Assembly (NCBI RefSeq): GCF_011927665.1
Contig: NZ_JAATJA010000001.1
Coordinates: 1,035,019 to 1,099,018 of the forward strand
From: Desulfobaculum xiamenense
GTDB taxonomy: Bacteria > Desulfobacterota > Desulfovibrionia > Desulfovibrionales > Desulfovibrionaceae
Direction of reading: 5' to 3'
Length of the DNA stretch: 64,000 bases
The notes under the pieces were generated by a model. That model had not been told where the DNA came from. It did no database searches and saw only the letters and a program-made list of their open reading frames with translations. The position numbers and the translations under genes were made by a program. This document shows positions 29,828 to 34,186 of this stretch, one piece after another. Numbering within the stretch: the first letter of the stretch is position 1; every line of letters starts with the position of its first letter.

Positions 29828-29855
29828 TTGACTGCCGCCTTGCGGGCCTTATCCT
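29828..29855 (+). promoter_or_regulatory. Promoter of the candidate selenoprotein gene
   Basis: TTGACT (29828-29833) and TATCCT (29850-29855) are 16 bases apart, with transcription expected near 29862 and AAGGAG before the ATG at 29916. Confidence 0.5.
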
Positions 29856-29915
29856 GTACGTTGACGCGCAGGAATGGCCCAACGCGCCCATGAGCCAATA
29901 CAACAAGGAGCACCC

Positions 29916-30101
29916 ATGGACAGCCTGCTTCTTCTCGTTCTTTTCGTTGCGGTAGCGATTATTCTCAACAGGTGGGTTCTGCCGAAACTCGGCATCCACG
30001 GTTGAGGCCCCGGAGCCGAGAGCTGCAGTTGGCAGCCCAAGGACAAGACCGACGCCAAGGGTCATGACACCACGCCCGAAGCCCACAAAAGCGACGACTG
30101 A
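29916..30101 (+). CDS. Candidate small single-span membrane selenoprotein (UGA at codon 30)
   Basis: Read conventionally this is a 29-residue peptide; read with Sec at the TGA (30003-30005) it is 61 residues. It starts MDSLLLLVLFVAVAIIL, one membrane span, then RWVLPKLGIHG-U-GPGAESC, with Cys37 seven residues after Sec30, and a charged tail. Support: AAGGAG eight bases before ATG; 25 of 31 codons after TGA end in G or C, as in local genes; a hairpin GCTGC-AGTTG-GCAGC (30022-30036) starts 16 bases after TGA with G in the first two loop positions, as the bacterial SECIS rule asks; and a terminator begins 5 bases after the second stop. Desulfovibrionaceae are known Sec users. The function is unknown; a membrane-anchored thiol/selenol redox protein is likely. 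Confidence 0.75.
30022..30036 (+). promoter_or_regulatory. SECIS-like hairpin
   Basis: A five-base-pair stem GCTGC/GCAGC with loop AGTTG. The loop begins 21 bases after the in-frame TGA, inside the coding frame, as bacterial SECIS elements do. Confidence 0.6.
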
Positions 30102-30106
30102 TACCC

Positions 30107-30133
30107 GGGGAAGACCGCCCTTCGCCTTTTTTT
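30107..30133 (+). terminator. Terminator after the candidate selenoprotein gene
   Basis: GGGGAAG (30107-30113) pairs with CTTCGCC (30120-30126) with one mismatch, loop ACCGCC, followed by seven T. It directly follows the second TGA at 30099-30101. Confidence 0.7.
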
Positions 30134-30155: not shown

Positions 30156-30184
30156 TTGCCATCCCCCGGCGATTTCCTTAAGAA
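30156..30184 (+). promoter_or_regulatory. Promoter of the first tRNA-Ser
   Basis: TTGCCA and TAAGAA are 17 bases apart, 15 bases before the tRNA. The second copy has the same arrangement at the same distance. Confidence 0.6.
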
Positions 30185-30198
30185 GTCTCTCGCAACGC

Positions 30199-30290
30199 GG
30201 AGAGGTGTCCGAGTTCGGTTTAAGGAGCACGCCTGGAAAGCGTGTACAGGGGAAACTCTGTCGGAGGTTCAAATCCTCTCCTCTCCGCCA
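30199..30290 (+). tRNA. tRNA-Ser (anticodon GGA), copy 1
   Basis: The 92-base gene has a long variable arm, acceptor GGAGAGG/CCTCTCC, discriminator G and encoded CCA. The anticodon stem CACGC/GCGTG encloses CTGGAAA. Confidence 0.95.
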
Positions 30291-30410: not shown

Positions 30411-30502
30411 GGAGAGGTGTCCGAGTTCGGTTTAAGGAGCACGCCTGGAAAGTGTGTACAGGGGAAACTCTGTCGGAGGTTCAAATCCTCTCCTCTCCGC
30501 CA
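30411..30502 (+). tRNA. tRNA-Ser (anticodon GGA), copy 2
   Basis: Identical to copy 1 across 92 bases except C to T at 30453, which turns a C-G into a T-G pair in the anticodon stem. The copies are spaced 212 bases apart and each has its own promoter and terminator. Confidence 0.95.
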
Positions 30503-30513
30503 CATGGCAATCA

Positions 30514-30540
30514 AGCCCCGGTTTTTCCGGGGCTTTTTTA
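30514..30540 (+). terminator. Terminator of tRNA-Ser copy 2
   Basis: AGCCCCGG pairs with CCGGGGCT around TTTTT, followed by TTTTTTA. Confidence 0.93.
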
Positions 30541-30884
30541 TGCCTAATTTTCTAAAGAAGCTAAAGATGACCAATGCTTGTTTTAATATGTCCTGGTCAA
30601 GTCCGGCCTCATTGATGCTCTCTTTCAAACTCCCAAATCCTGCGCAGACTCATCCATTATGAGCCTGCCCTCCTTAGCCCCAGAATCCTACTCCTCCACA
30701 TCTCCTTTTTGCTCGCCAGAACAGAGCCTGAACGCCATGCCCATGACTCTATAGCAAGATCAAGTGTTGTAAATCTTTGGCAAACTCTAGATGCGTCTAT
30801 CTTGCTTGCGAAGCGCTATACATCTGGCAAAACAGTCAAATTATTGATAATGGAGCTGAAACCATGCTGAGATAGGAGTCGCTA
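30541..30884. other. AT-rich left flank of the island
   Basis: This 344-base spacer is clearly AT-richer than the genome around it and carries no gene, RNA or direct repeat of the tRNA end that I can see. It holds the upstream region of the following gene. Confidence 0.5.
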
Positions 30885-32222
30885 GTGGAGAAAGAACCAC
30901 AACGCACGATCAGAGAAGTTATTGTCGAAGGTGAGCGTGGCAACCTGTTGCGCGTTGAAGACCTCCAAGCCATGTCCCCTGACGAGTGGGGAATGCTCAG
31001 AGACAGCATATCAAATCGTCATACTGGTGGCAAAGGCATATCGATGTTATGCATGAAGTGCAAACACCCTGTATACATCCGAGCGTACAAATATTTTGGA
31101 AGGACTTTTCCAGGCTTTGTGCATTTCGATGGAAGCCCAACTTGGTGCCAATGGTATCAAGGGAAGAACAGAACACCAGACTCCCTTAAGGCAGAACAAT
31201 ATGGAGGACAACAAGAATCCCCAGCACATGAGCTGTTATGCAAAAAAATTGGAGAACTTGCAGCGCTGGACAAACGGTACATTCGTCACACTATAAATAA
31301 ATATCATAATCCCCAATATTGCGACAATGCTCGAAGGCCAGACGTATACATTGAGTGGGAAGGGCATAGACCCTTTGCAATTGAACTACAGTTGTCAAAT
31401 ACGTACCAGACTGAGATATCTGGAAGATGCACATACTATTCAAAAGAAGGCATACCACTCATATGGGTTTTGTATGCTATTCATGAATACGTTAGCATTC
31501 CACAGTCTATCAAGGACGTTGTAAGACGACACAGAAATAATGCTTTTGTGATCGACAGAGATTCCATACGAGAATCATACAGCAAAAACACGCTTGTATT
31601 TAAGCGATATCTGTTAACAGGAGATTATTTTGATTTCCCAGAGCTTGTTACAATTGATTCGTTGACAGTTCCAGAGAATCAAACACTACCATACCACGAA
31701 GATCATCTTGCCCCAGCACTGAGAGCCAAAATCGACGATCGCCGAAAACCATTCTTCCATTTTTTCAACGAATGGGGAAAAAAAAGCACCCCTCCGGAAG
31801 ACATCAAGCGCATTCTAAATACGCTCCCCGAACACGTACCTGAAGACTTCATTTTCATGATCGCCGCGGCTTTCTCAATCGTAGCAACGCTTTCGGCAGG
31901 CCGTGACATAAATTATGCATCGAATGACCCCAATGTACGCGCCATGCTGAACAGTTATTTCAACGGAAATCGACTAGCTCGATATGCAGACATGATGGAG
32001 TTCATTCTTGGCAGAATCAGACCGAAGTCAAGCACCAGTCCCAACATCACCACCCATGCAGTCCGCAAAAATATCACCTTGAGGAAAAGTGACACTGAAC
32101 AAGCCGGCATTGAAACAAACGAATGGAGAGCAATGGAGTGGTTACTTCCTGAAGTCTTCGATGAATGCGAGCGAGAGCTGCTACGTTTTACGGACCAGCT
32201 CCCCTGCTGGACGCAGTATTAA
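30885..32222 (+). CDS. CoiA/DUF6035-like predicted nuclease of an AT-rich island
   Basis: The 445-residue protein has an N-terminal Cys pair (CMKCKHP, residues 56-62, with C88 further on), then a core that looks like a PD-(D/E)xK nuclease: RRPDVYIEW (Asp153), AIELQLSNT (Glu167-x-Gln169), and RCTYYSKEGIPLIWVLY. This resembles competence CoiA and the DUF6035 group. The remaining 245 residues are helical and unassigned. The GTG start at 30885 follows AGGAG seven bases upstream. Codon use is AT-rich, unlike the host, so recent transfer is likely. Position after tandem tRNA genes and beside a membrane protein suggests defence or competence, which is inference. Confidence 0.7.
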   Translation: MEKEPQRTIREVIVEGERGNLLRVEDLQAMSPDEWGMLRDSISNRHTGGKGISMLCMKCKHPVYIRAYKYFGRTFPGFVHFDGSPTWCQWYQGKNRTPDSLKAEQYGGQQESPAHELLCKKIGELAALDKRYIRHTINKYHNPQYCDNARRPDVYIEWEGHRPFAIELQLSNTYQTEISGRCTYYSKEGIPLIWVLYAIHEYVSIPQSIKDVVRRHRNNAFVIDRDSIRESYSKNTLVFKRYLLTGDYFDFPELVTIDSLTVPENQTLPYHEDHLAPALRAKIDDRRKPFFHFFNEWGKKSTPPEDIKRILNTLPEHVPEDFIFMIAAAFSIVATLSAGRDINYASNDPNVRAMLNSYFNGNRLARYADMMEFILGRIRPKSSTSPNITTHAVRKNITLRKSDTEQAGIETNEWRAMEWLLPEVFDECERELLRFTDQLPCWTQY

Positions 32223-32279
32223 CAACAACACTGCATTATCAGCGATACATCACACATTTCTCAACTAAATGAAGGGTAT

Positions 32280-32735
32280 ATGAACTACAACGAAGAAGCA
32301 AGTTTCCTTGGCGTAATGATGTTTGTCTTCTTTTGCGCCGCATTTCTTGCAACAGGATTCATTGCAAGGGCAGTCGGAGCTGATTTCTCCATCGTCTTTA
32401 CGTCACTGTCTTATTCTTGTTTTGTTGTTATCATAGAAGGCATAATCTATTATCTAACACGGTGTTCATGGCATTTAAACCTGTCACTGGTGGGTTCTTT
32501 GCTACCCGTCATCATATGGCCAGGCTGGTGGCCGGTTCTTGACTCAATCGCCGCAGGAGATTCTGACAAGGCATCGTTCCTTGGAAGCATCGTCCAGCAC
32601 AAGGAAGCCAATGATCTTTTTACGGACTTTGGCCCTCATATCGAATGGTACAACGATTCAATGTTCAAATGGAGCATCGAGATAGCTTTAGTTGCTTTAG
32701 TTGTGCTCGCCGTATGGAAAAAAAGACGATATTAA
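32280..32735 (+). CDS. Four-span membrane protein of the AT-rich island
   Basis: I do not recognise this 151-residue protein. Hydrophobic segments lie at about residues 8-30, 38-60, 66-88 and 131-147, and a short basic tail KKRRY suggests a cytoplasmic C-terminus. It begins 57 bases after the nuclease-like gene with AAGGG upstream, shares its AT-rich composition, and probably belongs to the same transferred unit. A pairing of nuclease and membrane protein is common in phage-defence systems, but nothing in the sequence proves it. Confidence 0.65.
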   Translation: MNYNEEASFLGVMMFVFFCAAFLATGFIARAVGADFSIVFTSLSYSCFVVIIEGIIYYLTRCSWHLNLSLVGSLLPVIIWPGWWPVLDSIAAGDSDKASFLGSIVQHKEANDLFTDFGPHIEWYNDSMFKWSIEIALVALVVLAVWKKRRY

Positions 32736-34087: not shown

Positions 34088-34186
34088 CCACGAGGGAAGC
34101 CGGGCGGCAGGAACGCCGCCAACCCCGTCAGGCCCGAGAGGGAGCAGCGGCAACGGTTGTTCTTGGGTGTCCGGTTTCCCTGAAAG
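34088..34186 (+). ncRNA. ffs: Signal recognition particle RNA (4.5S type)
   Basis: The conserved SRP apex GTCAGGCCCGAGAGGGAGCA lies around 34127-34146 in the small bacterial SRP RNA form. GGGAAGCCGG near the 5' side pairs with CCGGTTTCCC (34171-34180) to close the rod. A consensus promoter precedes and a strong terminator follows. The 5' end is predicted from the promoter, so it may be off by a few bases. The RNA binds Ffh and targets membrane proteins co-translationally. Confidence 0.88.

Follow-up and report, generated by a model that had tools for sequence, protein, structure and literature searches.

The 64,000-nucleotide stretch of Desulfobaculum xiamenense DNA that was analysed (the window) contains, near an aminotransferase-like gene and tRNA genes, a short open reading frame (ORF) that is interrupted once, by a TGA at codon 30. 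A preliminary description, made from the letters alone, had proposed that this frame encodes a membrane-anchored selenoprotein with selenocysteine (Sec) at this codon. The predicted product is MDSLLLLVLFVAVAIILNRWVLPKLGIHG-U-GPGAESCSWQPKDKTDAKGHDTTPEAHKSDD, and the features of the locus are summarized in Table 1. The frame with its single interruption and the AAGGAG motif ahead of the start codon were verified, and so was the codon bias: 25 of the 31 codons behind the TGA end with G or C, compared with 18 of 29 in front of it. Three further signals stood in part. The hairpin is present at the position described, but only the second of its first two loop bases is a G. The promoter was retained as a promoter-like site; two such sites exist in the region, the other one on the minus strand, compared with an average of 0.1 in shuffled sequences. 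Behind the second stop codon there is indeed a weak stem followed by a run of T, but a consensus scanner did not call it as a terminator and named another one at 30156-30172.

Table 1. Features of the predicted selenoprotein locus, in window coordinates.
Feature	Position	Strand	Basis and remarks
Predicted selenoprotein gene	29916..30101	+	ATG at 29916, 61 codons, second stop TGA at 30099-30101; relatives align
TGA codon 30, predicted selenocysteine	30003..30005	+	TGA/Cys column in the family; selB/selC co-occurrence
Shine-Dalgarno motif AAGGAG	29905..29910	+	5 nt upstream of the ATG; similar purine-rich runs before many relatives
Promoter-like TTGACT-16-TATCCT	29828..29855	+	9/12 consensus matches; consensus match only
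Weak putative intrinsic terminator	30107..30133	+	Stem 30107-30126, one mismatch, -8.4 kcal/mol, then T7; starts 5 bases past the second stop
Predicted single membrane helix, residues 2-24, probably N-out	29919..29987	+	AlphaFold2 and K/R bias
Predicted SECIS apical hairpin GCTGC-AGTTG-GCAGC	30022..30036	+	Begins 16 bases past the TGA; family-level covariation
Cys37, putative resolving thiol (U-x6-C)	30024..30026	+	Cys invariant in 30/30 of alignment A1

Relatives were searched in 288 genomes of the taxonomic family of the window, with the TGA read as cysteine (Cys). A long series of significant matches was obtained, and most of the strong ones contained exactly one internal TGA. Thirty relatives were read in frame (alignment A1); 29 had a TGA at the position in question, while one, from the genus of the window (L025), had a TGC. 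Residue G26, the Sec column and Cys37 were invariant, and conservation of the protein continued past the TGA with the Cys column and CGW/CSW-P motifs. Homologues that align through codon 30 with Sec or Cys at this position, which the preliminary description had regarded as decisive, were thus found, and three further Cys forms were added later (see below). Within the order, a profile derived from A1 matched 213 of 348 genomes at an E-value limit of 0.1, which is lax and takes in chance matches. Among the Desulfobacterota it matched 174 of 395 genomes, in 116 of 246 genera, at E 0.01 or better; part of these order- and phylum-level matches were read individually. Stop-free rows among the matches listed were considered as possible Cys forms. 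With G028 set aside, this was rejected, because all 23 that were fetched have a TGA immediately behind the matched segment. Three more drafts that were read afterwards each had a TGA.

As an approach that is blind to the TGA, a named-genome collection of 84,980 species was searched with a DNA pattern that stops short of codon 30 (for N-R-W-[VI]-[LF]-P-[KR]-[LF]-G). It detected 81 loci, five of which were unrelated (L112, L130, L141, L160, L184), and all 76 members had a TGA at the Sec position; these 76 partly coincide with genes from the genomes searched with the profile. Judged by record title, the members belong to Desulfuromonadales, Geobacteraceae, Syntrophobacteraceae, Desulfarculales and others within the Desulfobacterota, and beyond them to metagenome-assembled genomes (MAGs) labelled Planctomycetota (Pirellulales, Planctomycetales, Isosphaeraceae, Kuenenia), Spirochaetota, Aminicenantes and Acidobacteria, labels that may be wrong and of which both Kuenenia labels are doubtful. 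One member, L134, lies on a contig of the cultured Desulfuromusa kysingii DSM 7343. A search of 246 genomes of Planctomycetota yielded 27 matches; rows L207-L210 were dropped as non-members, and three Cys-form members were read (L188, L189, L194), which brings the members with Cys in place of Sec to four. In some cases a diverged tandem second copy, also with TGA, was present (L238 in G228, and L239-L241). One query each against plasmid and phage collections gave no match. The set used below comprises 140 loci that encode 132 distinct proteins, of which 131 are TGA forms; loci of the order search that repeat places from the 288-genome search were not counted again, and the TGA members L070, L079 and L082 were left out. 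By these sequence comparisons the gene is not a local one, and the family extends over many genera and several phyla.

A selenocysteine insertion sequence (SECIS) directly behind the UGA had also been proposed. In the window itself the folding energy downstream of the TGA was no better than that of shuffled sequences (z 0.06), and the hairpin is a feature beyond chance only by comparison of the family. At this level the proposal was confirmed. A stem of at least 4 bp was found in 125 of 127 distinct post-TGA sequences; the loop started 18-24 nt past the UGA in 118 of these 125, and 123 had a G within the first two loop nucleotides, compared with 48% of codon shuffles. The mean stem score of the 127 sequences was 16.0 versus 7.7 in shuffles, and the top of 50 shuffle sets was 8.8. 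An RNAfold criterion was passed by 120 of 137 loci and by 36% of shuffles. A later set of 27 sequences, in which L240 repeats L083, gave 26/27 and a score of 16.1 versus 7.6, and in the TGA members from the Planctomycetota search the loop of the best stem always had a G as its first or second base (17/17). The TGA members L103 and L190 are absent from every hairpin count.

Covariation was analysed in subgroups of 33 and 26, hand-picked from the 77 sequences whose fifth codon behind the UGA encodes Cys; the other 18 were excluded for a different loop spacing, each with its loop at 19-22 nt, and therefore the subgroup counts lean to the structure. In the subgroup of 26, all seven pairs change on both sides and 75.8% of the cells pair, while slid registers paired in at most 37.9% and none of 500 shuffles reached the covariation score. 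In the subgroup of 33, paired cells and covariation agreed with this result, and two of five measures did not beat the shuffles. Two of the four Cys forms had no 4-bp stem, and the stems of the other two were equalled or beaten by 54% and 91% of shuffles. The hairpin accompanies the TGA forms and is not above chance in the Cys forms. It was also observed that the stem overlaps the codons of a conserved C-[SG]-W-[QT]-P (window 30022-30036 and relatives), so that part of the amino-acid conservation behind Sec may be RNA constraint.

In line with the expectation of the preliminary description, the genome of the window (given as 3.64 Mb and 100% complete) encodes both selB (394 bits, above the curated cut-off) and the selenocysteine tRNA, tRNA-Sec (selC, 80.5 bits). 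In the Planctomycetota, selB was above the cut-off in 161 of 246 genomes. It was found in 18 of 19 genomes with a TGA form and in none of three with a Cys form (Fisher p = 0.0026; TGA form versus rest, p = 0.0045), a count that includes two known carriers used to build the profile (G733, G734) and omits G776 (L211, with TGA, hairpin and selB), with which it becomes 19/20. Two Cys-form genomes (G921, G978) had no tRNA-Sec at the limit used. In the TGA-form genome G863 selB was present, and the best tRNA-Sec match reached only 46.5 bits, with 144 of 232 candidates scored. Among 16 genomes with loci labelled Planctomycete, Spirochaete, Aminicenantes or Acidobacteria, two of which overlap the 246-genome sample, 14 had selB above the cut-off. 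Where selB went undetected in TGA-form genomes, all eight that were tested (G749, G726, G736, G356, G359, G386, G432, G453; the TGA was read in each) had a tRNA-Sec match of 65-78 bits.

A chance open frame behind a true stop codon was considered and rejected on account of the conservation in the family, the covariation of the SECIS, the replacement by Cys and the linkage to selB and tRNA-Sec. Taken together, sequence analysis supports the coding signal, the existence of the family and its SECIS, the association with the Sec machinery and the charge bias described below, and UGA 30 is almost certainly read as selenocysteine, which would result in a full selenoprotein of 61 residues.

The 140 loci encode proteins with a median length of 52 residues and with Sec at median position 30. 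An AlphaFold2 model of the window protein consists of a helix from residue 2 to 24 and an unstructured remainder (mean predicted local distance difference test score, pLDDT, 67.7; near 90 for residues 1-20 and 70 for residues 21-30). In all 131 distinct TGA-form proteins K and R were more frequent after the helix than before it. According to the positive-inside rule for membrane protein topology, this excess suggests that the tail faces the cytosol. The protein is thus probably located in the inner membrane, where only a very short N-terminal segment would lie outside and about 35 residues would form a flexible tail on the inner side. Exactly one Cys follows Sec in 123 of the 131 proteins, and the first Cys is located at U+5 to U+7 in 124 of them. 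Beside the helix, a segment N-R-W-[VI]-L-P-[KR]-x-G was conserved in alignment A6; this segment had been a search requirement for 20 of its 22 rows. Of the proposed membrane-anchored selenol redox protein, the single helix and the usual pair of one Sec and one Cys were recovered, while the redox role is still conjecture.

The gene neighbourhood was tallied with 115 of 137 listed neighbour genes, and the 25 commonest of 97 families were compared. It was rejected as a guide to function, because no partner is common to the family and the neighbours reflect local habits. In several Desulfovibrionales a gene named by eye as purC is located directly upstream. Some Desulfuromonadales members have a cupin or a desulfoferrodoxin nearby; desulfoferrodoxin accounted for four of the 115 neighbours and rhodanese for another four. 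Further neighbours came from side branches of the family. In L104 (1145-1660; MAG labelled Pirellulales) the selenoprotein segment continues in frame into a thioredoxin domain containing WCGPC, giving 172 residues, and an ArsR-type regulator adjoins. A rhodanese lies near L142 and L182, a YgaP-type rhodanese and an MBL-rhodanese together with ArsD and ArsA near L105, and a YgaP-like transmembrane protein near L139; these members, like L104, are from MAGs labelled Planctomycetota. L181 contains an SBF-family permease (Pfam; ACR3-like by eye), and a protein that is ArsR-like by eye adjoins L172. A separate observation was made in one genus (L212, L213, L215, L216), in which the ATG of an ORF for an FmdB-like zinc ribbon lies one codon past the selenoprotein stop; in L233 the distance is five codons. 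The zinc ribbon of L212, the one checked among these five, matched TIGR02605.

Downstream of the gene, the guanine-plus-cytosine (GC) content of the window drops from about 0.65 to 0.42-0.47 at 30500-32700. Two tandem tRNA-Ser(GGA) genes (30199-30290 and 30411-30502) precede the drop, and the low-GC stretch contains an ORF of 445 residues (30885-32222) with CoiA-nuclease/DUF6035 similarity. The region 30500-32700 looks like a foreign island beside tRNA-Ser. A gene for the bacterial small signal recognition particle RNA was found at 34091-34186 (59.3 bits).

The following mechanism is proposed. SelB and Sec-tRNA would decode UGA 30, directed by the hairpin 16 bases downstream. The tail would then hold, just inside the membrane, one selenol and in most cases one thiol, spaced four to six residues apart (U-x4-6-C), and the two would probably close a selenylsulfide. 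On the cytosolic side of the membrane, the selenol would attack an oxidised substrate, which could be a disulfide, a persulfide or a related group of a membrane partner. The Cys would then resolve it, and thioredoxin would recharge the Sec/Cys pair. The thioredoxin fusion and the rhodanese and arsenic neighbours in side branches would fit such a thioredoxin-fed selenol/thiol role. That the protein is a small membrane-tethered reductant or relay recharged by thioredoxin is put forward tentatively, with the selenylsulfide, the thioredoxin donor and the substrate as its presumed elements. As a whole, the combination of selenoprotein, topology and reductant role is favoured as the best explanation, with some reserve.

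Several observations weigh against this proposal. The TGA is kept but the close Cys is displaced or missing in L176, L204, L226, L229 and L232, and the second tandem copies in L239-L241 have no close Cys after the TGA or a Cys just two residues on. An intramolecular selenylsulfide therefore cannot be universal, and Sec is more constant than Cys. No conserved gene partner was seen in the neighbour tally, which was mixed in content within the 25 of 97 families compared. The thioredoxin fusion comes from one MAG, and internal start codons before the thioredoxin domain are possible in it. With regard to the decoding machinery, selB is present in 353 of 395 Desulfobacterota genomes, so that an association test is powerless there, and it was for this reason moved to the Planctomycetota. 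Of 20 listed selB-negative Desulfobacterota drafts (42 in total), seven have a family match, and a recheck of these 20 revealed no full selB above the cut-off, although that of G512 is perhaps split across contigs; a tRNA-Sec was found in all five of the matching drafts tested, with G406 and G512 outside that test. The congener G028 has a Cys form and yet has kept selB and selC, which is at odds with a simple rule. The Cys-form genome G907 has two matches to the tRNA-Sec model of 49-50 bits, over the Rfam gathering score; they were judged to be ordinary tRNAs, because second-best matches of equal size occur in genomes with a separate strong one.

The nearest rivals would concern the function, i.e., a role in sulfane-sulfur transfer, as a subunit or in metalloid binding. 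In the first case the selenol would take persulfide sulfur from rhodanese or YgaP-type enzymes and pass it to thioredoxin or a membrane acceptor. The rhodanese-type neighbours of L142, L182, L105 and L139, the four rhodaneses in the tally and the thioredoxin fusion of L104 point in this direction, as do the many hosts that, judged from their names, are presumably sulfate or sulfur reducers. These clues are, however, confined to the loci named, and the neighbours in the Desulfobacterota are other and mixed, which leaves a sulfane-sulfur carrier unlikely. About equally unlikely is that the protein serves a membrane complex as an accessory subunit, docked by its helix, with Sec supporting or protecting the active site of a partner instead of acting on its own. 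The tiny size, the helix with its unstructured tail and the conserved segment beside the helix, with the selection of the A6 rows mentioned above, are consistent with this role, whereas a conserved partner gene was not seen nearby. A binder of soft metals or metalloids (As, Hg, Cu), with selenol and thiol at the membrane and, e.g., handing over to an efflux pump, is somewhat less likely still. The ArsD, ArsA, ArsR-type, SBF-family and ArsR-like neighbours of L105, L104, L181 and L172 argue for it, and section 7 of PMC13188914 describes several transporter-type selenoproteins as implicated in metal resistance. In contrast, metal-resistance families are outside the 25 commonest of the 97 in the tally, and the tail has a single Sec-Cys pair and is not Cys-rich. 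That the TGA is a true stop, so that a membrane micropeptide of 29 residues is made and the rest is untranslated, is very improbable: small membrane peptides are common in bacteria and the hairpin of the window is no more stable than shuffles, but protein conservation runs past the TGA, four members carry Cys instead and read on, SECIS hairpins track TGA and not Cys, and selB and tRNA-Sec co-occur with the gene.

The family may represent a widespread, almost Sec-obligate bacterial membrane selenoprotein of several phyla, with a design like SELENOS and SELENOK and possibly a thioredoxin-fed selenol at the cytosolic face, and it might even rank among the commonest bacterial selenoproteins; this wider view is tentative. 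It has matches in almost half of the sampled Desulfobacterota genera and in other phyla, and it is absent from the catalogues searched. If this is true, the shortness of its two halves, which prevents annotation, and the great rarity of Cys homologues would explain why it was overlooked, and this would point to a blind spot made of short genes and of search methods that need Cys homologues. The family would be one more reason why sulfate and metal reducers may keep the costly Sec machinery, and it offers a small, tractable system for the function of a membrane-tethered selenol.

The family was compared with known systems. Neither Pfam nor NCBIfam release 20 gave a credible family match. In Pfam, Arabinose_trans (E 0.0056 in 4/30 A1 members) was judged spurious or shape-similar, and in NCBIfam no selenoprotein model matched the 30 A1 members or seven further members, the former giving hits to four unrelated models with E 0.11 to 0.27. 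The 2026 inventory of prokaryotic selenoproteins (119 families and subfamilies; PMC13188914, Table 1) shares with the family decoding by SelB and SECIS and, in many entries, Sec/Cys redox-like motifs; by a comparison of names and motifs, no entry with such an architecture or U-x4-6-C was found. The available parts of PMC9312934, PMC2398784, PMC1242214, PMC1914089, PMC8318568 and PMC12013277 do not mention such a family, and none was noted in a wider literature search, for which supplements and most subscription papers were outside the scope. According to the available part of PMC12013277, deep-Sep may miss selenoproteins that lack Cys homologues, which all known ones now seem to have. It was tested there with a Salidesulfovibrio genome of 3,886,744 bases, for which the table, as interpreted here, shows no new candidate.

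Three known architectures are similar in part. The FeoB_associated family (PF12669) is also short, with one N-terminal helix and a thiol-bearing tail, but its tail is CGCG-rich, whereas the window family has one Sec and usually one Cys, and a TGA with a SECIS. The match to PF12669 was not significant (best E 0.052 in 2 of 30 A1 members, none for the window protein), and the weak search matches L235, L243 and L244 look FeoB-associated by eye. The thioredoxin-fold selenoproteins with UxxC likewise have Sec and Cys close in sequence, and L104 is in frame with a thioredoxin domain. However, their spacing is two residues instead of four to six, and the model has helix 2-24 followed by disorder instead of a thioredoxin fold. 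SELENOK and SELENOS resemble the family in having one N-terminal helix and an unstructured cytosolic tail that bears Sec, the topology of the window family being derived from the charge bias only. They differ in that they are eukaryotic proteins of the endoplasmic reticulum, whereas this family is bacterial and no Gly-rich segment was seen in it, and in that their Sec is 2-3 residues from the C-terminus (PMC10650576, available part), compared with a median position of 30 of 52, after the helix. The resemblance is an analogy of design and not a shown homology. For SELENOS, the available part of PMC10650576 reports a selenylsulfide, a redox potential of -234 mV and, as a possible donor, the thioredoxin system.
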